Origin: Finegoldia magna ATCC 53516
GTDB lineage: Bacteria; Bacillota; Clostridia; Tissierellales; Peptoniphilaceae
Assembly (NCBI RefSeq): GCF_000159695.1
Contig: NZ_CM000955.1
Location: 501,543 to 565,542 of the forward strand
DNA length: 64,000 nt
Direction of reading: 5' to 3'
Position 1 is the stretch's first letter. Each line of letters begins with the position of its first letter. This document shows, piece after piece, positions 46,497-63,266 of this stretch. The notes beneath the pieces are model-generated. The model was not told the origin of the DNA, did not search any database, and saw only the letters and a program-made list of their open reading frames with translations. The position numbers and the translations under genes are program-made.

Positions 46497-46520
46497 AACA
46501 ATTAGCCACTAGATATGAAC

Positions 46521-46560
46521 TGACCCACAAAAGTTAGACATAAAAACTAACTTAAGGAGA
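46521..46560 (+). mobile_element. IS3/IS150-type left end remnant
   Basis: TGACCCACAAAAGTTAGACA resembles the terminal repeat of IS150-group IS3 elements, and a related end (TGACCCCAAAAAGTTGGAC) lies at 62868. No transposase follows: the IS256-type element begins 13 bases later and may have inserted into it. Confidence 0.5.
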
Positions 46561-46572
46561 TCAGTTTGGGTA

Positions 46573-48132
46573 TGTGAAAAGTTTTGTGTATCGGCTCCTC
46601 CTGATAGGTTGTGAGCTGATATTTTTTTGATTTTAAAAAAATATACTTTTATTACTAAAATCTGAAAGTTCAGATATTTGTAACCTAATTTTGGCACAAT
46701 TAAACTAAAAGGTCAAGATTTTTATAAAAATCTCCATTTTTGCCTAATTATATTTCTTAAAAATTTGAAGATTTCTGTCAAGAGCTGGTCGTCAGACCAG
46801 GGCTATGTCTTTACTCTTGATTGAATGATTCAAATTTTTTATTATTTTTATGGCAAAATTTAGATTCTGCCTTCAAAAAATATTGATAGTTGTGACAGTA
46901 TTTGATCCCATCCTCTTATTTTACTTGTCCATTTACTTGAAGCATCTACCATCGCTAGATACAAGCTTTTTTGTAGGGCGTAGTCGCTTGGAAATATTGT
47001 TTTGTTTTTTGTTACTTTTCTAAGTTGTCTATTAAAGTTTTCTATGCTATTTGTTGTATATATTAGTTTTCTTATTCCTTCTGGATATTTAAAATATGTT
47101 GATAATTCAGCCCAGTTATTTCTCCATGAATTTACACACATTTGGTATTTTTTGCCCCATTTTTCTTCAAATATATCTAGGTTACTTAGTATTAGTTTTT
47201 CTGTTGATGCTTTGTATACTGTTTTTAAGTCTTTCATTAACTCTTTTATATCTCTATATGATACGAATTTTGTTGAATTTCTTATTTGATGAATTACGCA
47301 TTTCTGAATTTCTGTTTTTGGATATACACTTTCTATTGCTTGGCTAAATCCTGATAAATTATCTGTTGAAACTATTAATATATCTTCTAATCCTCGTTCT
47401 TTTAATTGATTTAATACCAATAGCCAGTATTTACTTGATTCATTTTCTCCTACCCACATTCCAAGGATTTCTTTGTATCCTTCGGTATTATATCCTAGTG
47501 CTATATATACTGCTTTTTTTACTACTATGTTATTTTCCCTTACATGATAGTGTATTGCATCTAAAAATACAAATGGATATACTTTTTCTAAGGGTCTATT
47601 TTGCCATTCTTCAATAGTTGGTAGTATTTTATTTGTTATTTTGCTTACCATGGATTCTGATATTCCAAATCCATAGATTTCTTTTATGTGTGTTGATATG
47701 TCCCTTGTTGTCATTCCTTTTGCATACATAGATATTATTTGGTTTTCTATGTTTAATATGTCTTTTTGATATTTTTTCAATGCTTGTGGCTCAAAGGATC
47801 CTTCTCTGTCTCGTGGTATGTTTAGGTCTATGTTTGCGTATGATGATTTAACTGTTTTTTACTTGATCCATTTCTTGTGTTTAATGACAGTGGGTTTTCA
47901 CCATATTCATAATCTAGATGTTCATCTAACTCTGCTTTTAACATTTGTTCCATTTTGTCTCCTAGAAAATCTTTTAAGGCTTCTTGAATATCTCGTACTG
48001 TTTCTGGTTGATACTCTTCAATTAACATCTTGGATATTTTGTTGAGTCTTGTTTCTGGTCTTTTTCTTCGCATTTTAAAATCCTCCTGATTATTATTATA
48101 TCAGGAGGATTCTATACACAAACTATTTCACA
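46573..48132 (-). mobile_element. IS256-family insertion sequence, transposase frameshifted
   Basis: The ends are related inverted repeats: left TGTGAAAAGTTTTGTGTATC with CTCCTCCTGATA, right (reverse complement) TGTGAAATAGTTTGTGTATA with ATCCTCCTGATA. It is about 1560 bp long and contains one Mutator-type transposase gene broken by a one-base deletion. Its right end abuts a 540-bp gene-free stretch before the TerY-P-like operon. Confidence 0.85.
46860..48073 (-). pseudogene. IS256/Mutator-type transposase, one-base frameshift
   Basis: The N-terminal 81 residues (48073-47828) and the C-terminal 306 residues (47780-46860) belong to one IS256 transposase. DAIHYHVRENN, STDNLSGFSQAI and TTNSIENFNRQLRK carry the expected acidic residues. 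The break lies in a run of six A on the coding strand near 47860. With seven A the frame runs on as SSKKTVKSSYANIDLNIPRD. The phase does not fit a normal minus-one slippery site, so the gene is probably inactive. Confidence 0.85.
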
Positions 48133-48671
48133 GTCTCTGTAAATAAAAAAATAAAATTAGTACGAAATCGATTAAATTCATAACTTCCTATCTGTTAATT
48201 TAGTATTTATAATAGATTTAATCTAAATTTACTATAATCTTTGTCTTTTGTTAAATATAAATAAACAAATTCAATTTTTCATTGCTATGTTAATATCCTT
48301 GACCTTGAATAACTTGAATAATAACTAAGTAATATATCCAATACATCCAAATTTTATGGCATTTTAATAGAATCTTCATTAAAATTTACAGAAAATTCTA
48401 ATAAAATTTATTTACTATACTAATTTTTTTGTTACTAATGATTTACTAAAAAACTCACTAAATATATTATAATACTATCTACTCATTTTAACATCAGCAA
48501 CTTGCATTTAGAATTCACTATAGATTTATTCTATATTTTAAAATAAATCTTATAAATCTCTACTAATTGTACGAATATTTGTATAGTAACATTTATATTT
48601 ATCGAAAATATTTTAAAAATAATGGATAATATCTCCTTCTCTACCTAATAATTTGTTTACTTAATTGCAGC
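48133..48671. other. Gene-free AT-rich stretch
   Basis: About 540 bases without a convincing open frame, RNA gene or repeat. It separates the IS256-type element from the 3' end of the TerY-P-like operon. No clear terminator hairpin was seen directly after the stop codon at 48672. Confidence 0.5.
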
Positions 48672-49955
48672 TCAAACTGTTTGATGAGGAATAATGTTAG
48701 CTGCACACCCCTTTACTAATCTGGATTTATAACCATCAAAAAAATAGAATTCTCCTCTATTTAATTTTTTTATATCTTCTGGACTTAGAATATAATCCTT
48801 ATCTTCTGAATAAGTAAAAGTATTTGTGCTATTAAAACCTGGTATTATTTGTGACCATTTATGGATATTGTGTCCTGATGAACTGGATTCTGAAATCTTT
48901 GTTTTATCATATTTTCCGAAAAACTCTGCCCATTTTGTTCTTGATATTCCTGAAGAATGGTTGAATAGTAGGTAATTATGACAAAGTCCTAATACGGATT
49001 CATATATTTGGACATCATTAGCGCAAGCTGAAAAGAAATCAGATTCTCCAATCATAAAACTTGTATTAGGCTTTGGTTTTGATAATATTTCTGTAAGAAC
49101 TTCACCTTTTGTAAGTGATATATCATCAATTACAACAGCAAAGCCTCCATACTTATAAAGTTCATTTAGTTCTGATAACAAAAGCCTTGTATAAAGAGAT
49201 TCTGATGAGCTTAGCAAATCTACACTTATAACTTCGTATCCTTTGTTATATGCAGATCTTAGAGACTCTTGCTTTTTTGATAAACGATTGCTCAGTATAG
49301 GACTCATTTCAATTGAAAGATTATTTAAAAATATTTTAATATTTCCAAGTTCTTTTCCTCCAGATGCTAAATAAAATTGGAGATCTTGTCCTACTTGTGG
49401 ACTTATTTGACCTTGGTTAACCGCTGATTGAACTTTAGAAACCAAACTACCATGGGGGCATTTAAAAAAGGCTGGCAAGGACGGATTTCTCTTTGCTATC
49501 ATTAAATACTTCGCCATTCCCTCGAAGTATAGACTTATAGAGCTAGACAAATTAAAATCTTTTTTGCCTACATCTGATAAAATTTTTGATATTACACTGG
49601 AGTCATTTTCTATAAAAGGATCATAATTAGCTTGATTTTGAATTTGTCCTAGATTTCTCCTTGAAAATAAAATTGAATTGCTATAATTAGCTAGAATCTC
49701 ATCTTCCAATTCTAAATTATAATTGTGTAATAAAATAACAGGGATATTATATTTTTTAATCATGGTAATATAGGCCATTATAGCTGCGTTTCTTTCGTCT
49801 TTGCTAGCACCAGATACAACAAAATTGCTTGCACTAGAGCTGTTTTCGAAAAGCTCGTCAAAAGAAATAGACCTATAATTTTTAATGTTTTTCTTCCTAT
49901 TATTTTTGAAGTCTATGTTTTTTTTCTTTAAATAATTAATTAATTTCCAAATCAT
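48672..49955 (-). CDS. VirD4/HerA-like ATPase homologue without a P-loop
   Basis: This 427-residue protein has the outline of a VirD4/TraD-type motor but lacks its catalytic motifs. NFVVSGASKDERNAAIMAYI sits where Walker A should be and has no GKS/T. The strand FAVVIDDISLT stands in for Walker B, and the end LNRGEFYFFDGYKSRLVKG resembles the C-terminal segment of TraG/TraD proteins. It starts 2 bases after the intact ATPase gene. A hetero-oligomer with one active and one inactive subunit is plausible. It is the last gene of the operon. Confidence 0.6.
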   Translation of the reverse strand: MIWKLINYLKKKNIDFKNNRKKNIKNYRSISFDELFENSSSASNFVVSGASKDERNAAIMAYITMIKKYNIPVILLHNYNLELEDEILANYSNSILFSRRNLGQIQNQANYDPFIENDSSVISKILSDVGKKDFNLSSSISLYFEGMAKYLMIAKRNPSLPAFFKCPHGSLVSKVQSAVNQGQISPQVGQDLQFYLASGGKELGNIKIFLNNLSIEMSPILSNRLSKKQESLRSAYNKGYEVISVDLLSSSESLYTRLLLSELNELYKYGGFAVVIDDISLTKGEVLTEILSKPKPNTSFMIGESDFFSACANDVQIYESVLGLCHNYLLFNHSSGISRTKWAEFFGKYDKTKISESSSSGHNIHKWSQIIPGFNSTNTFTYSEDKDYILSPEDIKKLNRGEFYFFDGYKSRLVKGCAANIIPHQTV

Positions 49956-49957
49956 TT

Positions 49958-51259
49958 TTACCTAAAATCATCAAACTTAAATATAAAAGGTTGGCTAAAG
50001 GGTAGCCCAACTATTGCTTGGCCTACAGGAAGAGAGTTTTGATGCCAGTCTTCTACTGTTTGCCCCAATCTTTTTTCCTCTACCATAGTAAGGTCAGACT
50101 TCTGGTAGTCTTCTATAATGAGATTTTTGCCATAAAGGTTGCTAACATATTCCCTTGAGGCCATATCATTTGTCCTGAAAGAGATAAGCGTTGAAAAACC
50201 AGCCATTATATTCATAGCCCTAGATTCTCCATATATATCTACCAACTGTTCTATGCTTTGAATTCCTGCCAAGATTTTTAGACCCATGCTTCTGCCGAAG
50301 TTGACACCGTCTTCTATATGTTCTAGTAAAGGTATAAGCTTAAATTCGTCACAAATCAAATAAACATTTCCAGTTTTTTGATTTCTGGACATGGCTTCTT
50401 TGAGAGCTTGGTCAAAACATAGCCTATATATAGGCGTCAAAGAGTTGCCCTTGGCTAAATCATATTCTATAAATAAAGTTTTTCCGCCCTTGTTTCTGAC
50501 AAAATTTCTTATAGAAAAATTTCCTTTTTTTGCAAAATTGCCAACAAAAATATCTCTAACAACAGAAAACATTTCTGAAAGAACACCCTGACTTTGCGGA
50601 CCAGGGTAGGAAATATAAGAATTGACTGCTACCAAGTCTTTGTGACTAGCCAGCATGGCTTTGACCTTATTTTCATCACAAGAATCTAGGAGGCTTCTCA
50701 GTTCATTATTATAAAACATCTTTTTTCTGACATTTTTATCTTGGACACCTGCTCTGGTAAGGGATAAGAGTATGGACGATAAAACATCACTAGCAGCATT
50801 TGGGAAAAAGGCATTGGTTGTGTTCTTTACCCTCTCTTTAAATAATGACTTGCAAATCTCATTGCAATTTTGCTTTATGTGTTCATCATCAGTCCCGTCT
50901 GCTAGGATATCCCTAAAAATATTCCATTTTGATGATGTGTCTGTAATATTATCTATAAACAAATCACCATTTTCAAAAAACCTTTGGATATAATCTCCCT
51001 TGGTGTCAAAAATTATCATTACATCTTCATTTGTCATTTGTGCTTTTAATTGTTTTATAATATGGAAAAAAAGGGTGGACTTGCCAGATCCAGTTGAGCC
51101 AAGCATCAATAAATGCTTGGATAATTGGTCTTCAGACATAGTAAAACTAGCCATCTTTCCATCCTTTTCTCCCTCAAATTTTAGAAAATTCGAACTATTA
51201 TTTGTTACAATCTTATTATAGGCAACACTAGATCCGTATAAAATTTTAAAAGACATCAC
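49958..51259 (-). CDS. VirD4/TraG-like motor ATPase
   Basis: This 433-residue ATPase resembles type IV coupling proteins. Walker A GSTGSGKS is at 54-61, IIFDTKGDY at 82-90 matches the conserved DxKG element, Walker B NVYLICDEF is at 298-306, and GLKILAGIQSIEQL is the sensor-type glutamine motif. It has no N-terminal membrane helices, unlike conjugative VirD4, so it is soluble. No other conjugation genes remain in the window. It lies between a metallopeptidase-like gene and its P-loop-less homologue, in the operon with the TerY-P-like triad. Confidence 0.8.
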   Translation of the reverse strand: MMSFKILYGSSVAYNKIVTNNSSNFLKFEGEKDGKMASFTMSEDQLSKHLLMLGSTGSGKSTLFFHIIKQLKAQMTNEDVMIIFDTKGDYIQRFFENGDLFIDNITDTSSKWNIFRDILADGTDDEHIKQNCNEICKSLFKERVKNTTNAFFPNAASDVLSSILLSLTRAGVQDKNVRKKMFYNNELRSLLDSCDENKVKAMLASHKDLVAVNSYISYPGPQSQGVLSEMFSVVRDIFVGNFAKKGNFSIRNFVRNKGGKTLFIEYDLAKGNSLTPIYRLCFDQALKEAMSRNQKTGNVYLICDEFKLIPLLEHIEDGVNFGRSMGLKILAGIQSIEQLVDIYGESRAMNIMAGFSTLISFRTNDMASREYVSNLYGKNLIIEDYQKSDLTMVEEKRLGQTVEDWHQNSLPVGQAIVGLPFSQPFIFKFDDFR

Positions 51260-51268
51260 ATGCTCCTA

Positions 51269-52018
51269 TTATAAACCATAAGATTGGCCAATACCTATAT
51301 CCTGTCCCTTGTCCTGGTCATTAGCCTTAGGTTGTATATTACTATTCCTACTTTCCCTATCAGCTAAAAAATCAAAGCCCTGATCTTTTTTATAGTTATT
51401 TCCATATTTTTGCTCATAGGAAGAGTTTATTTCATTTTTAATCTTCTCTTCATAGTTTTTTCCATATACCTGCTCTGCCTTTAGCTTATAATAATTGTTT
51501 TCTATGTCCCTAGTATGTTTATAATCGTATAGGTCCCTGTCTTTGACATTTGCGGTCATCTTGTCAAACTTGCTGTTGGCATATTCATAGGCATCTTTTT
51601 CTACTGGCTGAAACCTATATTTGACATCAGAATTCATACCATTAGGCTCTTGATATTGGTCAAAATTCCTTCGCCAATCACCTATTTTATTTACATCATC
51701 AATATTTCCTATATTGGCCCTGCCAACTATACAGTCATCTTGGAAAGCATGCCTACCCTCATGGATTATCGTATCGCAGTTGTCATAGCGCCTATCATCT
51801 TGCATGATCAGTCTTTTATTGATGGCGATTTTGCTAGGATCATAAGCTGAGTAATATCCAGCTATATTTTTTTTAGGCATATTTTCTGGTGTAACAATCC
51901 TTGCTGGCCTATTTTGACTGGCAGCCATTGTATTTTCCAATTTTTGATAGAAATCAAGCCTCTGGTCATAGGTCATATTTTGCCAATTTTGTTTGCGAAG
52001 AGTATTAAAATCAATCAT
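51269..52018 (-). CDS. Protein with HEGRH metallopeptidase-like motif
   Basis: This 249-residue soluble protein contains CDTIIHEGRHAFQDD with His86, Glu87 and His90, a variant of the zinc HExxH motif. A possible third ligand lies in the helical stretch PVEKDAYEYANSKFD. The C-terminal third is polar and low in complexity. It begins inside the end of the 103-residue gene (8-base overlap) and ends 9 bases before the VirD4-like gene. A proteolytic effector or processing role is possible but unproven. No family is recognised. Confidence 0.6.
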   Translation of the reverse strand: MIDFNTLRKQNWQNMTYDQRLDFYQKLENTMAASQNRPARIVTPENMPKKNIAGYYSAYDPSKIAINKRLIMQDDRRYDNCDTIIHEGRHAFQDDCIVGRANIGNIDDVNKIGDWRRNFDQYQEPNGMNSDVKYRFQPVEKDAYEYANSKFDKMTANVKDRDLYDYKHTRDIENNYYKLKAEQVYGKNYEEKIKNEINSSYEQKYGNNYKKDQGFDFLADRESRNSNIQPKANDQDKGQDIGIGQSYGL

Positions 52019-52322
52019 TTTTTCCTATGACCCTATCTTTTTTGAAAGTAAACTTATCATAAAATTGTAGTATTTCTGGATTTTTCATAAGTAAGTCCAT
52101 TGAGAAAATCGCATTGAGATAGGATGCGTTTTCTTTTTCCATAATATCCTTGATGGATACACCTTTGTAACTATAGTTTTTTCTTTCTCCATTAAAATAG
52201 CCCACAACAGCTTTTTTTAATATATCAGAGAAGCTTCCTATATTTTCATACATCCTTTGTGCATCTTCTTTGCTTATTGACATGTCTTTTGCAATGATGT
52301 CAATGGTTTTTTCCTTATCCAT
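52011..52322 (-). CDS. Hypothetical 103-residue protein of the TerY-P-like operon
   Basis: The protein is small, helical and charged, beginning MDKEKTIDIIAKDMSISKED and ending KKDRVIGKND. AGAGGT precedes the ATG. It overlaps the metallopeptidase-like gene by 8 bases and follows the phosphatase gene by 16, so it is a true operon member. It might be an adaptor or an inhibitor of its neighbour. No family is recognised. Confidence 0.6.
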   Translation of the reverse strand: MDKEKTIDIIAKDMSISKEDAQRMYENIGSFSDILKKAVVGYFNGERKNYSYKGVSIKDIMEKENASYLNAIFSMDLLMKNPEILQFYDKFTFKKDRVIGKND

Positions 52323-52338
52323 AAATTACCTCTGTTTT

Positions 52339-54126
52339 CTAGTTTTCTGTATCTGATTTAAGACTAGCTATTTCCTCTTTCAGCATGTTTATTTTTTTGC
52401 CAAGAGCCTCTATCTCCTTGGCTTCATTTTCCATTAGTAAGCTCAGTTTTTCCTTTGCCCTATCTTTTTCTTCTTTTAAGGTCAAAATTTTTTCTTCTGA
52501 TTTTTTTAGAAAAGTATTTTCTTTTTCGTCCATTTCTTTTAATCTAGCATTATAGGCTTCTTGATTCTTTCTTATTTTTTCGTAGTAATCAGAAATAGCC
52601 TTTCGATTTTTATTATATCTCTTTTCGTCCTGAGAAATATACAGCAAATTAGAACTTTTAAACTTGCTCAGAACAGCTAGTACCTTTAGGATTGGATTGT
52701 CCTCTCCGTCAAAATATTTAATCTCTAAGTCTTTTTGATAATCATCTGCTTCTAGATTTTTTTCTAGTTCATATTTTTCTATCTCTTGATTTTTTTCTTT
52801 TATTTTATCAGAAATCTTTAAAAGAAAATTATTGTATTCTTCCCAATCCTGGGCCTTTGCTTTTTGATTTTCTTTGTCAAAGTTCCTATAATCCTCTTTT
52901 ATTTCTCTGATTTTTCTTGTGTTATCATTGATAATCCTTTCTGATGCTACTTTATTTTTGATAAAAGCTGTATTTTTCTCATCATAGATGACTTGTAATT
53001 GTGATAGATGATAAGATTTTTCTTCGATCTGTTCTTGTTTTTTCTCTAATTCCTTTGCTTTTTCCGCCTCTAAGTATTGGTTATGAAAAAGATCTATCAA
53101 TTCATCATTTTTTTCAACTCTGACTAAGCCAGCCATAGACACATCATCTTGGCTACCTAATTCTGCAAATTTATCAGCTTGTAGTTCTATAGATTTTTTT
53201 GCCTCATCGATATGCTCTTTTTTCATTAAAATTAAATAGGTATTCCTATAGAGATTCATTAAGCTTTCCTCGTTATCTCCAACCCTATAAGAGTCATCAA
53301 CTCCATCAGAGCCCATGAAGATCGCCATGACTTTTGCTTTTATATATTCAGTTTCTTTCCTGCTTTTATCTTCTAGAGTATCTTCTATAGCTTCTTTACT
53401 TTGAATTTCATTTGAAAGCAAATTATCACTTTCACATTGTTTTTTTGTAATTTTTGTGTTTTTTTCTACGCCAACTTCTACAAATCTTTCATCATCAGTC
53501 TTATACCCGTAGCAATACCTGAAATTATCTACGGCATTTGTATCTGATAAAGATGTGGTTACATTTATATAGCAAGCCTCATCCCAAGGTATAGACTGTT
53601 CTATTTTTCCATCTTCATATAAAAATACAGCTTTGCCATCGCCTATATGAAAAGCAAAGTAATAATCCTCTGCCATTACCCCTACCATAAGGGTCGCACC
53701 ATAGGCTGATATATAATAGTATGGATAGAGGGTCCCAAAAAACTTTTCTTTAGTAGCCTCATCCAAGTCCTCTGGTATCTCCTCTTCAGTAAAAGGATTT
53801 TCTGTCATATGGTTTGATATATCATTTTTCCATCTTTTATAGACATTTTCTATGAGGTTTTCAATTATCTTTCTTGGATTTTCTTTGAAATTTACAAGGT
53901 CAAAATCATTTTCAATTACTTTCCTTACTTCCTCTATACTTCCCTGGGCGGCAAGCTTAGATCCTACATCTGACCTAAAATGCTTGGATGATCCATGACC
54001 ATCAGATACAGCTATTATAGAAAAGTCATCACATGTATAATCAGATGAAAAGTCTTGGCACGGTTTGTTTCTTTTCTTGTGACTGCCTCCTAAGGTTGTA
54101 TAGGAGTATGAATATAACCCAGCCAT
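52339..54126 (-). CDS. PP2C-type protein phosphatase with C-terminal coiled coil
   Basis: This 595-residue protein begins with a PP2C domain: SHKKRNKPCQD (15-25), VSDGHGSSKH (40-49), FHIGDGKAVF and FMGSDGVDD supply the metal-binding aspartates. Residues from about 350 on are a long coiled coil (KELEKKQEQIEEKSYHL, KEKNQEIEKYELEKN) that may tie it to partners. A GTG at 54144 would overlap the vWA gene, but the ATG at 54126 just after its stop fits better. It would reverse the phosphorylation by the kinase of the same operon. It is one arm of a TerY-P-like triad. Confidence 0.85.
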   Translation of the reverse strand: MAGLYSYSYTTLGGSHKKRNKPCQDFSSDYTCDDFSIIAVSDGHGSSKHFRSDVGSKLAAQGSIEEVRKVIENDFDLVNFKENPRKIIENLIENVYKRWKNDISNHMTENPFTEEEIPEDLDEATKEKFFGTLYPYYYISAYGATLMVGVMAEDYYFAFHIGDGKAVFLYEDGKIEQSIPWDEACYINVTTSLSDTNAVDNFRYCYGYKTDDERFVEVGVEKNTKITKKQCESDNLLSNEIQSKEAIEDTLEDKSRKETEYIKAKVMAIFMGSDGVDDSYRVGDNEESLMNLYRNTYLILMKKEHIDEAKKSIELQADKFAELGSQDDVSMAGLVRVEKNDELIDLFHNQYLEAEKAKELEKKQEQIEEKSYHLSQLQVIYDEKNTAFIKNKVASERIINDNTRKIREIKEDYRNFDKENQKAKAQDWEEYNNFLLKISDKIKEKNQEIEKYELEKNLEADDYQKDLEIKYFDGEDNPILKVLAVLSKFKSSNLLYISQDEKRYNKNRKAISDYYEKIRKNQEAYNARLKEMDEKENTFLKKSEEKILTLKEEKDRAKEKLSLLMENEAKEIEALGKKINMLKEEIASLKSDTEN

Positions 54127-54131
54127 AGCTT

Positions 54132-54881
54132 TTAGATATCCCACTCATCATCATCTAGGTCATCTAGGCTATCTGTCACGAAATTTTTTATTTGCTCTTC
54201 TACTTGTTCTTGTTTGGTTTTTACACTACCATCATCCTTTATACCACCAGATACAGATTGGCTAGCTATTTGTGATGAAGTTACTGATACGAATTGTATC
54301 ATAGCCTTTAGTTTTTTAACGTTATTTGTCTGAAGTACAGCTTCTTTGGTACCCGTAAAGGCTTCTAAGACATCAAGGTCCGCATCTTGTCCTATACCAA
54401 GTGCTACTTTGATACCTGATTTGAACCATTTATTAGCCTTTAATTTGTTTAAGCCAGATTGGAATTGTTCTTCTGTTTCTGTAGGCATACCATCAGACAT
54501 CAAAAATATTACTGGTGCATAAGAGGATGTTGCTGATTTCATAAACTTATCTCCGTGTAGTTTTGATTCTAGCTCCTCAAAGGCTGCCCCCATCCTTGTC
54601 GTGCCGTTAGCATTTAAGTCTCTCCATAGATAGACGCCTGGATCTACTGGACCTGTTTTAGGGGTTATCCATTGTATTTCACTATTAAATGATAGAATAG
54701 CCATCTTGACTTCAGCGTCAGGATTTGAGTTAGATATATCTGACAACTCAGGAAGGATTTCCTCAATTGCAGAGTTAACCTCCCCTATCTTTGTGCCTTT
54801 CATTGAACCTGAGGTATCAATTACAAAAAATAAAACCATCATCTTTCTAGGTATTTCATCAATAATTAAAAAATCATCCAT
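54132..54881 (-). CDS. TerY-like von Willebrand A domain protein
   Basis: This 249-residue protein is one vWA domain with an intact metal-ion-dependent adhesion site: DTSGS at 22-26, Thr94 in NGTTRMG, and Asp130 in FLMSDG. The acidic tail ends DDLDDDEWDI. It resembles TerY proteins of tellurite-resistance-type gene clusters. Known TerY-P triads join such a vWA protein with a PP2C phosphatase and a kinase with a zinc ribbon, exactly the neighbours here. It may serve as the scaffold or substrate of that switch. Confidence 0.85.
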   Translation of the reverse strand: MDDFLIIDEIPRKMMVLFFVIDTSGSMKGTKIGEVNSAIEEILPELSDISNSNPDAEVKMAILSFNSEIQWITPKTGPVDPGVYLWRDLNANGTTRMGAAFEELESKLHGDKFMKSATSSYAPVIFLMSDGMPTETEEQFQSGLNKLKANKWFKSGIKVALGIGQDADLDVLEAFTGTKEAVLQTNNVKKLKAMIQFVSVTSSQIASQSVSGGIKDDGSVKTKQEQVEEQIKNFVTDSLDDLDDDEWDI

Positions 54882-54906
54882 ATTTGTCTCCTTATTTTTA
54901 TTTTAT

Positions 54907-56208
54907 TTATTTTTTAAATTTTCCATTTCTACCATTTCCAAAGTCAACCTCAAGATTGGTCACAATCCTTGTAGCTTTACCATCTTCTAGAGACCTTTGG
55001 TCCATGCCTTCATAGTTTAGATACCAGACTGTGCCAGACTTATTATAAAGGCCAAGTTGTTTTGGATTATTTTTGGCCCTAACAACTGCACCAGTAACTG
55101 TGTTATAATCCTCGCTGGTATCGCTTGTATGGTATTTATAAAGCTTTACACCTGGGTATACAGGGACTTTTATATTGTTAATATCTAATATGAGTGGGAC
55201 CCTGAGTTGCTTGCCACAAGAGCAAACCCCATTACCACTATAATCAACAAATGAATCCCTACCACATGAGCAGGTGATAAGGTCAGTTCTTAATCTCATA
55301 AGTATATCCAGCCACTCGCTCTCAAGCCTTCTATTAGCCTTCATCAACAACTTATCTTGTGAAAACTCATCTATGAAAGCTTGCCTAAAATATTCTGGGT
55401 AGGCTCCCCATTTCTTTCCTACATTTTTGTGGATAGCAGGGTCTGGCCTATTTGAGAAATTTTTAGGATCCATTATAAAAATCGGATTTTTTCCATAAAT
55501 ATTAAACTCATCTTCTTCTGTGACTAAATCTAACATAGTGGCCTGTCCTTCTAGTGGGTGGTTTGCAAAAAATAGCAAAAACAAAATTACTGATAGGGAA
55601 TACCTATCTGTTTGTTTATCTGGTGATTTTTTACTAACTACAACTTCTGGTGCCATATATCTTGGCTTACCCTTGACCCCTGAGTTGAAACCATGACCCA
55701 TAACATTGTCATTATCACAAATCAAAACCTCTCCAGTAGAAAAGTTTATAAAAAAGTTTCCATCATTTAGGTCTTGGTAGTTATAACCTGCCCTATGCAA
55801 AAGCATAAAACTATTGGTAATATTTAAACCAGCATTGATAAGTGCTTCTATCGATGTAAAAGTCTTCTTGCCCAAGAGATACTTAGAAAAATCATCATAG
55901 GAATCAGGTTTTAGATCCATGATGTATCCAAAACTAGCTTCTTTGTCTTTTGTATCATACTGAGTTATATCTTTTGGCCACAAGAAGCCCTCACCAGGAC
56001 TAGGATTTTTAATATTGTTTTGTAGGTTGTCATAAAATTTTGTTCCATTTGAAATGGTAGATTTCTTGAACCATTTTAGGGCCATATCCTTACCATTATA
56101 ATCAACCAGATATACAGTACCCTGGCCACCAGAACCCAGCTCTTTTTTGACCGTCACATTGACATTTTTGTCAGTAAGGAGCGTCTGTCCTTCTTTTAAT
56201 TTATCCAT
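54907..56208 (-). CDS. Serine/threonine kinase-like protein with C-terminal zinc ribbon
   Basis: This 433-residue protein has a kinase fold. The glycine loop GSGGQG is at 25-30, Lys45 in MALKWF, and the catalytic loop YQDLNDGN near 144-151 has Asp146 and Asn151. DND at 165-167 replaces DFG, and APE is at 186-188. A zinc ribbon follows at about 305-330 (CSCGRDSF...GVCSCG), then a beta-rich C-terminal domain that may be an SH3- or FHA-like binding module. ATG at 56208 has GGAGGAG upstream; a TTG at 56223 is less likely. It is the first gene of the operon. Confidence 0.85.
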   Translation of the reverse strand: MDKLKEGQTLLTDKNVNVTVKKELGSGGQGTVYLVDYNGKDMALKWFKKSTISNGTKFYDNLQNNIKNPSPGEGFLWPKDITQYDTKDKEASFGYIMDLKPDSYDDFSKYLLGKKTFTSIEALINAGLNITNSFMLLHRAGYNYQDLNDGNFFINFSTGEVLICDNDNVMGHGFNSGVKGKPRYMAPEVVVSKKSPDKQTDRYSLSVILFLLFFANHPLEGQATMLDLVTEEDEFNIYGKNPIFIMDPKNFSNRPDPAIHKNVGKKWGAYPEYFRQAFIDEFSQDKLLMKANRRLESEWLDILMRLRTDLITCSCGRDSFVDYSGNGVCSCGKQLRVPLILDINNIKVPVYPGVKLYKYHTSDTSEDYNTVTGAVVRAKNNPKQLGLYNKSGTVWYLNYEGMDQRSLEDGKATRIVTNLEVDFGNGRNGKFKK

Positions 56209-56223
56209 TTCTCCTCCTAGCAA

Positions 56224-56518
56224 TAAATTTTTATAAGATATTAATAAAAAATATCCACTATATAATATATTATATAGGTTAAATGATTTTATAATTCACA
56301 AATTATTATGATCAGATACCTAACTATATTACAGTCATTATATAACATTTTATAATTTTAATCAATTAATCTTTCGTATGATAACTAAAAATTTTATATG
56401 TAAACTAATTTTAATACCCAGAAAACTTAGCAAATTACTTAACTATCTGATATAATAAAACTAATGCAAGGCTAAGATAAGAAACTAGTTTTTATTCAAT
56501 AAATAAGGAGCAAATAAA
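56224..56518. promoter_or_regulatory. Divergent control region between kinase and LRR genes
   Basis: This 295-bp AT-rich region must hold the promoters of the minus-strand operon and the plus-strand LRR cluster. A TATAAT at 56451-56456 suits the LRR gene, without a clear -35 box. A palindromic TATATAATATATTATATA at about 56258-56275 may serve the kinase side. Confidence 0.45.
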
Positions 56519-58555
56519 ATGAAATCAAATGAATTTACGGACCTAAGACCATGCCTAGAATATATCTACAAAAACTTTGGAAAAGAGGTTTTTTTCTCAG
56601 GTAGGCTATCTGCCTATGTCAAAGACCTAGGTCCAAGTATTGAAGAGTCTTCTGTAATAAGAATTTTAGAAAGAGAAACTAACCTAACTCAAATCGAGTC
56701 CATAAGCTCTATCGATATAAATGATAGAAATTTCCTTGTAAATGATATAATTTACAAGCTTCCAAATCACCTAAATAAGGCTGTCTTTAGAAACACATTA
56801 GAGATTGTTATATTGAGCCTTGGTGTAGATCTTGAAGAAAAGAAAACTCAAATTCAAGAAAATATTTCTATAAATACCAATACTATAAACACAAAAATCT
56901 CAAGTGAATCTTCTGAATTTGAATTTGATAAAAGTAATGGCACTATAAAAAAATATTTAGGTACTAGCAAAGAAATAACAATACCTCAAAAAATCAATGG
57001 AGTACCAGTCAAGATTATTGGCTCCTTTTCATTTAAAGATATTGGTATTGAGAAAGTGGATATCCCTATAGGGATTGAAGAAATTAAAGACTATGCCTTT
57101 GAGAAAAATAAAATTGAAATTTTACATCTACCTGAAAGTTTAAGGTCTATTGGTTGCTCAGCTTTTGCTGAGAATAATATTTCAAAATTAATCCTTCCGA
57201 ATAATATCGAAAATATAGATGAATTCGCTTTTATAGGCAATAATTTAGAAAAGTTAGCAATACCCCTTAATTTAAACTCTATAAAAGCTAGCGTTTTCTC
57301 TAACAATAAAATCAAAGATTTAACTTTACATGATTATGTTGAAAACATAGATAAATATGCATTCTACAATAATAAAATTGAAGATTTGACTTTACCTGAA
57401 AATTTAAGGTCTATTGGTTACGCAGCTTTTGCTAATAATAATATTTCAAAATTAATCCTTCCGAATAGTATAGAAAATATAGATGAATTTGCTTTTAAAA
57501 GCAATAATTTAGAAAAGTTAGTCATACCATTTAATTTAAAGTCTATTAAATCTAATGTTTTCTCTAATAATAAAATCAAGGATTTAACTTTACATGACTA
57601 TATTGAAAACATAGATAAATATGCATTCTACAATAATAAAATTGAAGATTTGACTTTACCTGAAAATTTAAGGTCTATTGGTTGCGAAGCTTTTGCTGAT
57701 AATAATATATCAAAACTAACTCTTTATAGTGAAATAGAAATGTTTGATAAGTATGCTTTTGATGAAGATATAATAAAATTTTGTATAAGCAATATAATGA
57801 ATTTAATTGAAAATAAATCCCTGAATAATAATAAAGTAATAAAAATAATCAGAAAGCTTGTAGAAATAGAGCAAGATATTGTGGAAATAGGTGGACCAGT
57901 GTTTATTCCAACAGATAATCCAAATGTCATGAATTGTTACTATGGAAACAGTACTAAAGTGAAGAGTTGTTACTATAATAACGCCTTTCTATTTGATAAA
58001 TCTACAGGAACAATTAATAAATATCTTGGTGGTAGTAATATGGTTTTAATACCAAACAAAATTGACGGAGTCGAAGTTAAACATATTGATGATTTTTGTT
58101 TCAAAGCAACAAAAAATATTGAAACTGTAGAAGATTTTGATAAATATTTTTGGGACGATTTTACAATTAAACAATTGCCTAAACACTATGACTTTTCAAA
58201 TAATGCAATCGAATATCTAGTTTTACCAAGCACTTTGAAAACGATAGGTAAATGTGCATTTATAAATAATAATCTCAAGGAATTAACCTTGCCTGAAAGC
58301 ATTGAAATCATTGAAAAGTCTGCTTTTATGCATAATCAGATAGAAGAATTAACTATACCTGAAGGTATTGAAGTAATTGGCGAATCTGCTTTTTATGATA
58401 ACAAGATTGAGACCCTTCATATACCAGCAAGTCTAAAATCTATAGAATCCGATGCTTTTGCCTATAATAATATTAAAGAAATTTATTTACCTCATGGAAT
58501 TGAATATGTTGATGAAAGAGCCTTTGATAGAAAAGTAATCATTCATAGAAGATAA
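56519..58555 (+). CDS. BspA-type leucine-rich-repeat protein with conserved N-terminal domain
   Basis: This 678-residue protein has no signal peptide. Residues 4-105 form a helical domain (NEFTDLRPCLEYIYKNFG, FSGRLSAYVKDLGPSIEES, IYKLPNHLNKAVFRNTLEI) shared with the next genes. After a linker, a FEFDKSNGTIKKYLG strand unit opens each of two LRR_5 arrays (about 140-410 and 490-675) with 22-23-residue repeats of the form LxLPExLxxIGxxAFxxNxI. AAGGAG precedes the ATG. Such repeats usually mediate protein binding. Its cytoplasmic location, inferred from the lack of a signal, is unusual for BspA-like proteins. Confidence 0.85.
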   Translation: MKSNEFTDLRPCLEYIYKNFGKEVFFSGRLSAYVKDLGPSIEESSVIRILERETNLTQIESISSIDINDRNFLVNDIIYKLPNHLNKAVFRNTLEIVILSLGVDLEEKKTQIQENISINTNTINTKISSESSEFEFDKSNGTIKKYLGTSKEITIPQKINGVPVKIIGSFSFKDIGIEKVDIPIGIEEIKDYAFEKNKIEILHLPESLRSIGCSAFAENNISKLILPNNIENIDEFAFIGNNLEKLAIPLNLNSIKASVFSNNKIKDLTLHDYVENIDKYAFYNNKIEDLTLPENLRSIGYAAFANNNISKLILPNSIENIDEFAFKSNNLEKLVIPFNLKSIKSNVFSNNKIKDLTLHDYIENIDKYAFYNNKIEDLTLPENLRSIGCEAFADNNISKLTLYSEIEMFDKYAFDEDIIKFCISNIMNLIENKSLNNNKVIKIIRKLVEIEQDIVEIGGPVFIPTDNPNVMNCYYGNSTKVKSCYYNNAFLFDKSTGTINKYLGGSNMVLIPNKIDGVEVKHIDDFCFKATKNIETVEDFDKYFWDDFTIKQLPKHYDFSNNAIEYLVLPSTLKTIGKCAFINNNLKELTLPESIEIIEKSAFMHNQIEELTIPEGIEVIGESAFYDNKIETLHIPASLKSIESDAFAYNNIKEIYLPHGIEYVDERAFDRKVIIHRR

Positions 58556-58633
58556 ATACTTGCGCTAAATATTCTAAGTATTATCTTGTAAAGCTAAAAA
58601 TAAATACTATTTAAAATAAAAATGGATGTTAAT

Positions 58634-60307
58634 ATGAATAAAAAATACACACATACAAATGAATTTACGGACCTAAGACCATGCCTAGAATATATTTACA
58701 AAAATTTTGGGAAAGAGATTTTTTTCTCAGGCAGGCTAACTGCCTATGTCAAAGACTTAGGACCAAGTATTGCAGAGTGTTCTGTAATTGGAATTTTAGA
58801 AAAAGAAAATATACTAAATCAAATAGAGTCAATATGCTCAATTGATATAAATGATAGAAATATACTTATAGATGATATTATTTACAAGCTACCTATACAC
58901 CTAAATAAGGAAGCATTTAGAAATACTTTGGAGATTGTCATATTGTCCATGGGCGTGGAACTTGAAGAAAAGAAAATTCAAATCCAAGAAAATTCTCCTG
59001 TAAGTTCTAATACAAACGATTTTAAAATCATGGCTTTAGAAGATGATCGAGACGAAGATAATAACAATGTTCAAAAGGATTTAATAATATATCAAGATGA
59101 CGAAGGTCAAACACCTGCCAATCCTCCTTCTGACTTTGAATTTGATAGGAGTACTGGCACTATAGTAAAATATTTAGGCCAAAGCAAGAATGTAATAATA
59201 CCAGCAAAAATCGATGGGGTCCAAGTTAAAAAAATAGAGGATTTTTGTTTTGCTTATGGTAATAATCAGAATTTTGAAGTAGCTAAAGTACGTGGCTTAT
59301 TACCTAAAATGTGGTCCTTCCGTGATTACATTAGAATTGAAAATGTAGAAATACCTCAAGGGGTTGAAACAATAGGTTGTGCAGCATTCTATAATAATAG
59401 AATAAAGTTACTAAAATTACCTAATAGTATAAAATATATTCAAATTAGTGCTTTTGAGCATAATATAATTGAAACCCTTAATATACCTGATAGTGTACAA
59501 TCTATAGGCAATTATGCATTTACTAATAATCAAATTGAAGACTTGACACTTGGAGAAAGCTTACATTCTATTGGAGAGGGTGCTTTTGAGTATAACAAAA
59601 TTAAAATCCTTAATATACCAGCAAGTGTATCAGTAATTCAATATTCAGCATTTAGGAGAAATCAAATTAAAGACTTGACACTGGGAGAAAACTTATGGTC
59701 TGTTGATTACTATGCTTTTGAGGATAATAACATTGAGACCCTTAATATACCAGCAAGTTTAGTATTTATTTTCGATTCAGCATTTAGAGGTAATCAAATT
59801 AAAGACTTGACACTAGGAGAAAGCTTACATTCTATTGGAGAGGGTGCTTTTGAGGGTAATAAAATTGAGACCCTTAATATACCTGCAAGTGTAAAATCTA
59901 TTGGCGGTTATGCATTTTACGATAATGAAATTAAAGAATTGACACTGGGTGAAAACTTAGAGGCTATTGGAGAGTTTGCTTTTTCGTTTAATAAAATTAA
60001 AACCCTTAATATAACTGCAAGTGTAAAATCTATTGGCGATTATGCATTTTACGATAATGAAATTAAAGAATTGACATTGGGTGAAAACTTAGAGGCTATT
60101 GGAGAGTTTACTTTCAGTAATAATAAAGATGACGAAGGTCAAACACCAGCCAATCCTCCTTCTGACTTTGAATTTGATAGGAGTACTGGCACTATAGTAA
60201 GATATTTAGGACAAAGAAAGAATGTAAGAATACCAGAAATAATCGATGGGGTTAAAGTAAAAAGAATTGGTGATTCTGCATTTAAAAAAATCAAATTAAA
60301 AAATTGA
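58634..60307 (+). CDS. LRR protein, N-terminal part of a frameshifted gene
   Basis: This 557-residue frame begins with the shared N-terminal domain (NEFTDLRPCLEYIYKNFG at 9-26), then an acidic linker, a FEFDRSTGTIVKYLG unit and an LRR_5 array. A second copy of DDEGQTPANPPSDFEFDRST lies near 500, so a segment has been duplicated. The frame is lost at a run of seven A (60284-60290), where other repeats read AAAAATAAT. One added base would join it to the frame that follows, for a protein of roughly 918 residues. ATG at 58622 is also in frame, but the homologous gene at 61438 supports 58634. Confidence 0.75.
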   Translation: MNKKYTHTNEFTDLRPCLEYIYKNFGKEIFFSGRLTAYVKDLGPSIAECSVIGILEKENILNQIESICSIDINDRNILIDDIIYKLPIHLNKEAFRNTLEIVILSMGVELEEKKIQIQENSPVSSNTNDFKIMALEDDRDEDNNNVQKDLIIYQDDEGQTPANPPSDFEFDRSTGTIVKYLGQSKNVIIPAKIDGVQVKKIEDFCFAYGNNQNFEVAKVRGLLPKMWSFRDYIRIENVEIPQGVETIGCAAFYNNRIKLLKLPNSIKYIQISAFEHNIIETLNIPDSVQSIGNYAFTNNQIEDLTLGESLHSIGEGAFEYNKIKILNIPASVSVIQYSAFRRNQIKDLTLGENLWSVDYYAFEDNNIETLNIPASLVFIFDSAFRGNQIKDLTLGESLHSIGEGAFEGNKIETLNIPASVKSIGGYAFYDNEIKELTLGENLEAIGEFAFSFNKIKTLNITASVKSIGDYAFYDNEIKELTLGENLEAIGEFTFSNNKDDEGQTPANPPSDFEFDRSTGTIVRYLGQRKNVRIPEIIDGVKVKRIGDSAFKKIKLKN

Positions 60308-61389
60308 CACTGGGTGAAAACTTAGAGGCTATTAAATATGGTGCTTTTCAGGATAATCAAATTGAAACCCTTAATATACCTGCAAGTGTAAAATCTATTG
60401 GCGATTCTGCATTTGAAAATAATCTAATTAAAGAATTGACACTGGGTGAAAACTTAGAGTCTATTGGTAAGAGTGTTTTTAGAAGTAATAAAATTGAAAC
60501 CCTTAATATACCCGCAAGTGTAAAATTTATTGGCGATTCTGCATTTTACAATAATCTAATTAAAGAATTGACACTGGGTGAAAGCTTAGAGTCTATTGGA
60601 AATGATGTTGATAATTATGGAATTATGGAATTGACACTAAGAGTAAGCTTTGAGTCTTCTGGAATAGGTGCTTTTGAGAATAATAAAATTGAAACCCTTA
60701 ATATACCTGCAAGTGTAAAATCTATTGGATTTTCCGCATTTGAAAATAATCTAATTAAAGAATTGACACTTGGAGAAAACTTAGAGGATATTGGAAAATA
60801 TGCTTTTGATGATAATAAAATTGAAACCCTTAATATACCTGCTAGTGTGAAATCTATTGGCGATTCTGCATTTAAAAATAATCAAATTAAAAAATTGACA
60901 CTAGGTGAAAGCTTAGAGAATATTAGAAAAGGTGTTTTTTCGTGTAATAAAATTGAAAACCTTAATATACCTGCTAGTGTAAAATCTATTCACGATTCTG
61001 CATTTAAAAATAATCAGATTAAAAAATTGACACTAGGTGAAAGCTTAGTATCTATTTGGGAAAATGCTTTTTTGGAAAACAGAATTGAAAACCTTAATAT
61101 ACCTGCAAGTGTAAAATCTATTGGCGATTCTGCATTTAAAAATAATCAAATTAAAAAATTGACACTAGGTAAAAACTTAGAGTCTATTGGAAAAGGTGCT
61201 TTTAAGGATAATAAGATAGAGAGACTTCAACTACCAAAGAGTATAAAATCTATAGAAGCAGATGCTTTTACCTCTAATAATATCAAAAAAACTATTGTTC
61301 CTAATGAGATTGAAAACATTGAAAAGGATATCTTTGATAAAAATGTAACAATTAGAAAAAAATCATTTTTTAATAGATTTGGATTTTAA
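60304..61389 (+). CDS. LRR protein, C-terminal part of the frameshifted gene
   Basis: This frame of 361 codons is made of LRR_5 repeats only (IETLNIPASVKSIGDSAF alternating with IKELTLGENLESIGKG). It ends with a VTIRKKSFFNRFGF tail. It has no ribosome site; its apparent start is a TTG inside a repeat, so it is the downstream piece of the preceding gene. The repeats are nearly identical at DNA level, which favours recombination and slippage. Confidence 0.7.
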   Translation: MTLGENLEAIKYGAFQDNQIETLNIPASVKSIGDSAFENNLIKELTLGENLESIGKSVFRSNKIETLNIPASVKFIGDSAFYNNLIKELTLGESLESIGNDVDNYGIMELTLRVSFESSGIGAFENNKIETLNIPASVKSIGFSAFENNLIKELTLGENLEDIGKYAFDDNKIETLNIPASVKSIGDSAFKNNQIKKLTLGESLENIRKGVFSCNKIENLNIPASVKSIHDSAFKNNQIKKLTLGESLVSIWENAFLENRIENLNIPASVKSIGDSAFKNNQIKKLTLGKNLESIGKGAFKDNKIERLQLPKSIKSIEADAFTSNNIKKTIVPNEIENIEKDIFDKNVTIRKKSFFNRFGF

Positions 61390-61437
61390 TATTTTTATAA
61401 ATACAAGTTATTATTAATTTGAAAGGTGAAAGATACA

Positions 61438-62007
61438 ATGAATAAAAAATACACACATACAAATGAGTTTACAGAACTTGGGCCATGCCTAGAATATATC
61501 TACAAAAACTTTGGAAAAGATGTGTTTTTCTCAGGTAGGCTATCTGCCTATGTCAAAGACCTAGGTCCAAGTATTGAAGAGTCTTCTGTAATAAGAATTT
61601 TAGAAAAAGAAAATATACTAAATCAAATAGAGTCAATATGCTTAATTGATGTAAATGAAAGAAATATATTAATAGATGATATTATTTACAAGCTACCTAT
61701 ACACCTAAATAAGGAAGCTTTTAGAAATACTTTGGAGATTATTATATTGAGCCTAGATATTGATTCTAGATACAATAAAAATAATATTCAAGAAAATAAT
61801 AATATAAATACTGGCAAAAAAAAATCTAATGTCATACAATCAAAAGATAGTATTGACAAGAATTTAAATTCTTCAGATACAAGTTTAAAAAAATCTTTAA
61901 GTCTCATAGGTGACTTTATAATAGACGCAACAAAAGGAATGGATTCGCAAACAAGAGAAGAATTTATAGATAAATTTTTTAGGCAAAGCAGAAAGGAATA
62001 CAAATAA
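61438..62007 (+). CDS. Short protein with the shared N-terminal domain but no LRRs
   Basis: This 189-residue protein has the same N-terminal domain as the two LRR proteins (NEFTELGPCLEYIYKNFG, FSGRLSAYVKDLGPSIEES), followed by a polar linker and a short helical tail ATKGMDSQTREEFIDKFFRQ. LRRs are missing. AAAGGTGA supports ATG at 61438, with an in-frame GTG at 61426. It shows that the N-terminal domain can stand alone or with other tails, perhaps as a partner-binding domain. Confidence 0.75.
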   Translation: MNKKYTHTNEFTELGPCLEYIYKNFGKDVFFSGRLSAYVKDLGPSIEESSVIRILEKENILNQIESICLIDVNERNILIDDIIYKLPIHLNKEAFRNTLEIIILSLDIDSRYNKNNIQENNNINTGKKKSNVIQSKDSIDKNLNSSDTSLKKSLSLIGDFIIDATKGMDSQTREEFIDKFFRQSRKEYK

Positions 62008-62029
62008 ATTTGCAGATTTTATAAAGCAA

Positions 62030-62135
62030 GCCTAAACCACAGTTATAAAAACTTTAGGATCTGGTGTTTTTATCAATTAAACTTTCAGCTTATGTAAAGA
62101 ACTAGGCCCAAACTTAGATTAGTATGCTATTTTCC
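62030..62135 (+). pseudogene. Degenerate fourth copy of the shared N-terminal domain
   Basis: TATAAAAACTTTAGGATCTG and TTTCAGCTTATGTAAAGAAC are recognisable as the YKNFG and LSAYVKDLGP region of the intact copies, with indels and stops. It is a dead copy. Confidence 0.7.
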
Positions 62136-62247
62136 ATGATTATCGAAAAATAGAATTAATTTTAATAATTACTATAATAATAGAAAATCAAAAAATAAAT
62201 ATTATGAATAAAATACGTAGATTTAAAAATTAAATTATTTACAGATT

Positions 62248-62282
62248 GCACAAAAAGACGATAGATTGTCTATCGTCTAATA
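62248..62282. terminator. Hairpin between LRR cluster and mobile remnants
   Basis: AGACGATAGA pairs with TCTATCGTCT around TTG. An A run to the left gives a possible U tract on the minus strand. Confidence 0.6.
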
Positions 62283-62292
62283 AAATCTTTAT

Positions 62293-62485
62293 TTAGTATA
62301 GTTTTGCTCCTGCAGGAATCCTATTTAAAAGCATGATTAGGTTTAATCTTTCCTCGTCGTCTTCTTAATGAATTGCTGATAGTAGCATTCCTTGACTTTT
62401 TACTCCCATCATTTTTCTTGCTGGTAGATTTACTAAGGCAAGGAGGGTTTTTCCTACTAGCTCAGATGTATCATAATAGTCTTTG
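62293..62485 (-). pseudogene. tRNA-binding domain remnant (MetRS C-terminus/CsaA type)
   Basis: The minus strand reads ITKDYYDTSELVGKTLLALV then NLPARKMMGVKSQGMLLSAI, which matches the tRNA-binding fold at the C-terminus of methionyl-tRNA synthetase or CsaA. A stop codon interrupts it after H, then the frame goes on to LNRIPAGAKLY. It has no start and is a fragment. Confidence 0.65.
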
Positions 62486-62865
62486 GTTATTTGTCTTTTT
62501 TTATTAAAACTATCACTTCTTTTATCTTTTCTGACTCTGTATTTAATTTACTGATTTCATCTTCTAAGTTTTTGATTTCTTCTAACCATTCTTTTTCTCT
62601 TAAATTTTTCTTTCCACTGATTTTTTCAATTTAGTTTCTTGCTCTTATATGTTGGCCTATTTCCTTTTGATTATTCTTGTAGAAGCTTTCTTTGAATATT
62701 TTATTGTTTTCATATTCTTGGTAGGTTGCTTTTGTTTTTCTTACAGTCTTTGCATAGGCTAAACATTTGTTTAAGGTCTTCTATCTTTTGACTATTTTCT
62801 TTTATGGTCTTATATATTTCAGAGTTTTTACTTCTTAGGTTATTTATATGCCCTTGTAGATCTAA
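62486..62865 (-). pseudogene. Relaxase/mobilization protein C-terminal remnant
   Basis: The minus strand reads TVRKTKATYQEYENNKIFKE and YKNNQKEIGQHIRARN, then a stop and a helical tail ending VIVLIKKDK. The pattern resembles the C-terminal helical part of MobA/relaxase proteins from integrative elements. A frameshift and a stop show that it is dead. Confidence 0.5.
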
Positions 62866-62867
62866 GG

Positions 62868-63012
62868 TGACCCCAAAAAGTTGGACTTTGTACCAGAGAC
62901 ATTTAGAAATATTTGTCTCTGGTTTTCTTTTGTCCTATCCTACCCATAGGGTTAGAATTTTTTATGCTACATTTTTCTTTCTATATTCTACTGGTGATAA
63001 GTATCCTAATTT
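62868..63012 (-). mobile_element. IS3-family remnant: transposase C-terminus and inverted repeat
   Basis: The minus strand encodes LGYLSPVEYRKKNVA and a stop at 62962, the usual end of IS3 OrfB (xxSPVEYR). The element end TGACCCCAAAAAGTTGGAC is at 62868-62886. The rest of the element is missing. Confidence 0.75.
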
Positions 63013-63095
63013 TTATTTTTTCCTCTCGTCTAACGAAATCTTCTAAATTATTTTTATCCCTTATCCTGCAATCATCAACACCACAAAACCTTAAA

Positions 63096-63266
63096 GCAAA
63101 CATTCGAAGCTAAGAATATCATCATATAAAATTTAATGCTTCTTATGAGCGACGCTTCGAACGAGGAAATCTTCATTTTGCTTTTTTAAAAAAGAAGATT
63201 TCTGAAGTGAGGCTGAGCAAATGAGAACATTAAATTTTAACTAAGATATTCGTGCAAGATGTTTGC
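63096..63266. repeat. Palindromic element, core type C, copy 2
   Basis: It has the same ends and core as the element at 43150 with changes mostly in the terminal loop (TTTTGCTTTTTTAAAAA). It sits between the mobile remnants and the rRNA operon terminator. Confidence 0.8.

Follow-up and report, generated by a model that had tools for sequence, protein, structure and literature searches.

A Finegoldia magna operon combining a TerY-P-like switch, an active and a P-loop-less TrwB-like ATPase, and a predicted metallopeptidase

Seven minus-strand genes at positions 48672..56208 of a 64,000-nucleotide stretch of the Finegoldia magna ATCC 53516 genome (contig NZ_CM000955.1; the whole stretch is called the window here) encode, in order of transcription, a kinase, a vWA protein, a PP2C phosphatase, a 103-aa protein, a protein with the motif HEGRH, an active TrwB/VirD4-type ATPase, and a relative of that ATPase without a P-loop, referred to below as the dead motor (Table 1). 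We tentatively propose that this is an accessory conflict operon, in which a phosphorylation-gated motor pair would retain a cognate effector inside the cell's cytoplasm or let it go. The proposal draws on the conserved loss of the P-loop in the dead motor and on the recurrence of the motor pair beside vWA and PP2C genes in a genome of another genus of the same family, G472.

All seven open reading frames (ORFs) are present and tightly spaced or overlapping, as an earlier note on this DNA had described them. In transcription order the junctions measure 25, -13, 16, -8, 9, and 2 nt, the 13-nt overlap being that of the vWA and PP2C genes, and because they are short or overlapping the seven genes have the appearance of a single operon. 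For the kinase the most likely start codon is the ATG at 56208, which is preceded by GGAGGAG; a longer ORF that reaches a TTG at 56223 is unneeded. Promoter-like sites numbered 45 against 40.2 expected and terminator-like sites 9 against 3.9, none of the latter at the operon end. Pfam scans covered 17 proteins, the seven of the operon and ten neighbors, and family matches from Pfam, PADLOC, and NCBIfam were listed to E 0.1; among the NCBIfam matches shown for the operon proteins, none reached its cut-off.

The active motor contains both a Walker A (GSTGSGKS) and a Walker B (LICDE) motif and, in addition to its Pfam assignment, matches a solved TrwB by sequence at 1e-21. In PADLOC it has a weak likeness to mad8 (3.9e-13; mad3, 0.021), and PHROGs also relate it to a terminase family (5.1e-9). 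A weak similarity to HerA was likewise noted by PADLOC among the operon proteins. In Pfam the dead motor yields a sub-threshold match to TraG-D_C (0.0065), and its structure model (pLDDT 80.5) matches TrwB along almost its whole extent. The fold common to both motors is taken from this model because a profile comparison of the two was uninformative (hhalign probability 0.7%). Among 7995 candidates scored, 52 proteins are related to the dead motor at E <= 0.001. The P-loop is absent from all 29 aligned rows, with G-x4-GK[ST] in 0/29 and just one row showing the letters GK at that place, and the motif SG-x5-R is invariant. Given these relatives, the conserved loss of the P-loop, and the TrwB-like model, the dead subunit represents a family and not a single decayed copy. 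The active/inactive VirD4-like pair of the earlier note stands. No clear membrane segment was found in the seven proteins (maximum 19-residue hydropathy 1.35, and 1.18 for the active motor), and the operon therefore brings no channel of its own.

The switch genes resemble the TerY-P triad to which the earlier note had matched them, a kinase domain and a PP2C being encoded in the same operon as a vWA protein, and the qualified name "TerY-P-like" is fair; the PADLOC TerY model itself matched the vWA protein weakly, at E 0.017. By pattern, the vWA protein has the residues of the metal ion-dependent adhesion site (MIDAS), DTSGS followed by a T and SDG, in line with the intact metal site of the earlier note. 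The catalytic motifs MALK and YQDLNDGN are present in the kinase, and its tail has CSC at 313 and 329. This C-terminal CxC...CxC pattern makes a zinc ribbon possible, and no Pfam zinc-ribbon family matched it, so that of the claimed zinc-ribbon kinase the kinase stands and the ribbon remains a reading of the motif. The kinase also matches mad6 in PADLOC at 1.1e-12, and the NCBIfam MAD6 model gives it 33 bits against a cut-off of 460. PP2C_2 matches the phosphatase over residues 19-310 (4e-29), and Asp48, Asp169, Asp280, and Asp333/334 are present by pattern. The C-terminal part of the phosphatase was read as a coiled coil by eye only.

The two remaining proteins gave no Pfam, PADLOC, or NCBIfam family, and the 103-aa protein matched nothing in PHROGs either, in agreement with its earlier listing as an unknown. 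A single weak PHROG match, to a family of unknown function (phrog_16003; 0.0015, residues 49-122), was obtained for the HEGRH protein. A set of 21 HEGRH proteins was gathered. Across the family the HExxH motif and the distant Glu140 are invariant, and in the structure model the motif lies in a helix at 74-98 and Glu140 in a helix at 138-154. From the motif and the model, the HEGRH protein is predicted to be, probably, a zincin metallopeptidase. We propose it as the effector of the operon and the 103-aa protein as an effector chaperone or immunity protein. The latter resembles a 95-aa protein on L001, a short stretch of genome G216, with a local score of 52 against 26.3 +/- 4.6 for shuffled sequences (0/2000 reach it); BLASTP between the two gave no match (E 8.6). 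At 20-2428 of L001 the gene for this 95-aa relative is followed by tandem HEGxH genes. For the HEGRH protein P0002 and the dead motor P0022 the longest contig has one and the same length, 10708, which suggests that the two lie on one contig.

At the G472 locus (L014) the genes run SUKH-1 immunity protein, Tox-GHH toxin, active motor, dead motor, vWA, second vWA, PP2C, and transglutaminase. The active motors of G472 and the window are 50% identical and the dead motors 25%, and no shuffled sequence scored as high as the G472 vWA and PP2C did against those of the window (0/500 and 0/200, respectively). The toxin gene (Tox-GHH, 3.3e-24) immediately follows that for SUKH-1 (3.4e-10), a toxin with an adjacent immunity gene as in polymorphic toxin systems, and the slot before the motors can therefore carry a toxin. 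Since this slot is held by the HEGRH protein in the window and by Tox-GHH in G472, the gene immediately before the motors can be exchanged and the HEGRH protein falls outside the recurring core. The company of triad, ATPases, and HEGRH protein, whose recurrence elsewhere the earlier note had treated as decisive, is thus reproduced for the motor pair, vWA, and PP2C; the kinase was not found, in a search with no positive control, and the HEGRH protein is replaced. Transposase-like ORFs were seen by eye upstream in L014.

A search of 149 related genomes found relatives of the active motor in 12, and the match is strong in G472, G014, and G465. Soluble active motors were read in five bacterial loci besides the window and G472, namely in G014 and G465, on two plasmids of Paenibacillus, and on one of Curtobacterium. 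In the loci that were read, the switch occurs together with the dead motor, which was seen in the window and G472 only. At 1e-25 the active motor was found once in a phylum sample of 398 genomes (G252), and within the genus of G014 in two of four genomes, which are G014 and G465 themselves. The dead motor was found in 1/149 relatives of G472, namely G472 itself, and in 0/196 genomes of a class sample that included no genome known to match. Two matches to it in the phylum sample (2/398) were rejected on reading the ORFs, one being VirD4-like with membrane segments and its own P-loop and the other an unrelated-looking frame. For the HEGRH protein, the phylum sample yielded 1/398 (G216), the relatives of G216 yielded 1/100 (G216 itself), and a set of relatives in which no genome known to match was included yielded 0/61. 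An empty result from a set without such a genome says little. Patterns from the active-motor and HEGRH alignments gave 41 and 97 matches on genome contigs, with no relatives by tblastn, and neither these alignments nor that of the dead motor revealed relatives on viral contigs. Phage records searched with the active motor and with P0070, and plasmid records searched with P0034, gave none.

Several smaller observations were made at these and other loci. Zinc-ribbon proteins stand near the soluble motor by eye in G014 and G465 and by annotation in Paenibacillus, where the order of a zinc-ribbon protein and then a soluble VirD4-type ATPase keeps its position between two large plasmids (L021 10950-13179 and L022 10950-13179). 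A different soluble-VirD4 cluster was seen in two genomes of one genus (L015 8122-13488 and L016 9614-14194), in which proteins that have hydrophobic segments and, by eye, a zinc ribbon are followed by a variable acidic-tailed protein and then a VirD4 ATPase. The motif GxG[ILMVF] occurs in the last 12 residues of 5/304 stop-to-stop frames of at least 150 aa in the window and seven loci, and two of these five are proposed cargos (L014 and L015). The window HEGRH protein ends in GIGQSYGL, which is similar to this motif and does not match it. The L014 and L016 cargos end in ISR, which may reflect merely a ribosome-binding site.

TerY-P triads, composed of a vWA protein, a PP2C, and a zinc-ribbon kinase, very often occur with Type II and III-A CoCoNuTs (PMC11090510) and adjoin FtsK/HerA-type ATPases, nucleases, and restriction systems (PMC11090510, PMC4978471). 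In extended operons with a duplicated vWA, an EssC-like, SpoVK-like, or VirB4/HerA-like ATPase is inserted and some domains are inactive (PMC11090510), and Helicobacter TerY-P clusters add WxG, FtsK, and an LHH nuclease (PMC4978471). To call the arrangement unprecedented is therefore too strong, triads with EssC/FtsK-like or VirB4/HerA-like ATPases having been published (PMC11090510, PMC4978471). GAP1-N2 systems likewise include a zinc-ribbon kinase, a PP2C, and a vWA protein (PMC7159879). Within the open literature searched, TerY-P and VirD4 appear together in one paper only, in different gene clusters (PMC4978471). In that literature, with subscription papers mostly uncovered, we recognized no paper describing an active/dead TrwB pair with the triad. 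What is new here is that the triad is combined with an active and a dead ATPase of the TrwB type and with a protein effector that can be swapped, and that McrBC genes are absent from the proteins scanned; the kind is already known.

The operon shares with CoCoNuT-linked TerY-P clusters the TerY-like vWA, PP2C, and zinc-ribbon kinase (here the ribbon is possible and the vWA matches TerY weakly) with an FtsK/HerA-superfamily ATPase, the duplication of the vWA (seemingly, in G472), and inactive ATPase domains; a small helical protein is found in one subtype of those clusters and effector nucleases near some of the ATPases (PMC11090510). By the 17 proteins scanned it does not qualify as a CoCoNuT, no McrB-like GTPase or McrC-like nuclease being among them, and it differs further in that the TrwB/VirD4-type ATPase comes as an active and a dead protein, both soluble and separately encoded, and that the effector is the HEGRH protein, or Tox-GHH in G472. 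In the Helicobacter/Sulfurimonas/Vibrio TerY-P cluster, which lies in a genomic island, the triad likewise stands with FtsK and an LHH nuclease, but WxG, AAA+ helicase, ParA-like, and McrC-type genes unseen here are also present (PMC4978471). Stand-alone TerY-P-like defense modules (Gao et al. 2020, as described in PMC11090510) are accessory too and have a kinase, a vWA protein, and a PP2C, whereas their kinase has an OB fold and the part of the source covered does not mention a motor pair or HEGRH protein. Five of the seven proteins have no Mad hit in PADLOC, so a full Mad set, unlike in MADS, is not present. Both motors have the ATPase core and fold of type IV coupling proteins, but here without the membrane domain, with the dead partner as a separate protein, and with no type IV secretion system (T4SS) genes among the proteins scanned. 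The operon accordingly does not qualify as a conjugative T4SS, no relaxase or channel family being found in the 17 proteins and no clear membrane segment.

In the mechanism that we tentatively propose, the kinase (with its possible zinc ribbon), the MIDAS-bearing vWA, and PP2C would set a phosphorylation state, and the soluble TrwB-like translocase, with its active and Walker-less subunits probably in one ring, would bind the cognate effector encoded just upstream, perhaps through a disordered C-terminal tail. In the window that effector would be the HEGRH protein, accompanied by its 103-aa partner, and its counterpart in G472 the Tox-GHH nuclease with its SUKH immunity gene. While bound, it would stay inactive or off target. 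On sensing stress or invading DNA, the switch would alter phosphorylation, and the active subunit would hydrolyze ATP and either let the effector go or thread it onto a target in the same cell, harming the invader or the infected cell. A more specific form of this proposal is possible but doubtful: that one active VirD4/TrwB subunit and one obligately dead one form a soluble hetero-ring, with no T4SS channel, gated by the switch and serving interchangeable, tail-recognized effectors, a zinc protease here and a nuclease toxin elsewhere. A defense or processing function of the operon, as the earlier note had supposed, is something we infer.

A number of results weigh against this proposal. The motor pair with switch genes is known from two loci only, the window and G472, and in G472 the vWA ORFs look short or split, the first having 149 aa and the second being divided between two frames, with its piece below the Pfam cut-off; a transglutaminase also follows PP2C there, and the dead motor has a hydropathy peak of 1.92. 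The window-type kinase was found in 0/139 relatives of G472, G472 included, at 1e-8 in a search with no positive control. Neither a dead partner nor a switch was present, by ORFs or annotation, in the five bacterial soluble-motor loci, and two haloarchaeal plasmids with weaker motor matches were also without them; these plasmid contexts are 5 of 1935 motor-matching plasmid records. For the HEGRH protein, Foldseek returned 0 rows at E <= 0.001, with a weak zincin match, and its profile against solved structures returned three irrelevant rows at E 0.28 or worse. PADLOC named no defense system among the operon proteins, and the effector tail motif is a post hoc lead. Like ring formation, peptidase activity, and cargo recognition, the trigger, the target, and tail recognition are steps that we infer, and these last three count on the same side.

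TrwB/VirD4 proteins couple secretion substrates, and threonine phosphorylation controls the firing of type VI secretion. The motor pair might export an antibacterial toxin, delivering the neighboring effector to a channel in the envelope whose genes lie elsewhere, while the kinase and phosphatase control firing, although we consider this unlikely. Such export is in keeping with the Tox-GHH and SUKH genes in the G472 slot, which belong to polymorphic-toxin families (PMC3482391), and with the interpretation of TerY-P clusters with WXG100 and FtsK genes as secretion modules (PMC11090510, PMC4978471), but the seven proteins have no clear membrane segment, the VirD4 N-terminal membrane domain is missing, and channel, relaxase, and WXG families are not among the seven operon proteins and ten neighbors. 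The likeness to polymorphic toxin systems is itself partial: Pfam finds a trafficking domain on neither the HEGRH nor the Tox-GHH effector, the window operon does not qualify as such a system, its HEGRH and 103-aa proteins matching no known family, and VirD4, vWA, and phosphatase are unmentioned in the part of the PMC3482391 main text covered. Unlikely too, and ranked after export, is a DNA-centered machine, whose motors would pump or scan DNA in the way of HerA/FtsK defense translocases and whose HEGRH protein would cleave proteins bound to DNA, as crosslink proteases of the SprT/Wss1 type or ImmA/IrrE proteases do. A chance junction, with a coupling-protein fragment of an integrative and conjugative element inserted beside a TerY-P-like triad, would suit the accessory segment with its broken transposase, the five other soluble-motor loci without a switch, and the failure to find the kinase in G472, but is very improbable because G472 has the motor pair beside vWA and PP2C in another arrangement, and the gene junctions here are overlapping or 2 nt and no relaxase or channel family was found in the proteins scanned.

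The operon lies in a 16.7-kb segment that is replaced in two congeners by 0.86 and 1.0 kb, as determined by blastn. In G001 the window is matched up to 46513 (97%) and again from 63244, with 0.86 kb between, and in G002 up to 46516 (92%) and again from 63318, with 1.0 kb between. The DNA comparison scored 40 of 213 and 40 of 194 candidates, so that the absence of this DNA applies to the aligned place and is less complete outside it, and included one 58-bp match (80%) inside the dead-motor gene; relatives of the HEGRH protein and the active motor were not found in G001 or G002. The G001 contig ends shortly past the right-hand match. The right side of the segment is a multi-copy stretch, which in G002 leads into a region poor in long ORFs, probably rRNA. 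By eye, the left border lies in a stem-loop after a lipoprotein-like gene, and the first and second of the leucine-rich repeat (LRR) genes have in common about 100 N-terminal residues (NEFTDLRPCLEYIYKNFGKE...), outside the best Pfam LRR stretch.

Table 1 Features of the operon and its surroundings, in window positions
Feature	Position	Strand	Evidence
Ser/Thr protein kinase, 433 aa; C-terminal CxC...CxC, then more C-terminal region	54907..56208	-	PF00069 1.4e-17
Stand-alone vWA, 249 aa; MIDAS residues; acidic C-terminal tail	54132..54881	-	PF13519 2.4e-9
PP2C phosphatase, 601 aa; N-terminal catalytic domain, long charged C-terminal part	52339..54144	-	PF13672
103-aa protein; gene overlaps HEGRH gene by 8 nt	52011..52322	-	matches no family
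HEGRH protein, 249 aa; HExxH 86-90, Glu140; low-confidence C-terminal tail	51269..52018	-	motif, model
Active TrwB/TraD/VirD4-type ATPase, 433 aa	49958..51259	-	PF10412 2.6e-44; Walker A/B
TrwB-fold ATPase relative without Walker A, 427 aa	48672..49955	-	structure model
Accessory segment with operon	46517..63243 (approximate borders)	.	blastn to L040 (G002), L041 (G001)
IS256/Mutator-type transposase, broken, split over two frames, near segment edge	46860-48073		Pfam
Three BspA-type LRR genes, divergent from operon	56519-61389		Pfam

TerY-P triads adjoin many ATPases and nucleases in the papers cited here, which offer only a hypothesis of their mechanism; the compact operon described here, with a single motor pair, small partner, and effector, makes the question testable, namely whether the phosphorylation state decides if the motor binds or releases the effector. 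The analysis also brings to light a family of conserved HEGRH proteins that Pfam does not match. If the proposed mechanism is true, VirD4-type couplers, known from secretion, would be able to function with no channel and beside a dead subunit as partner.

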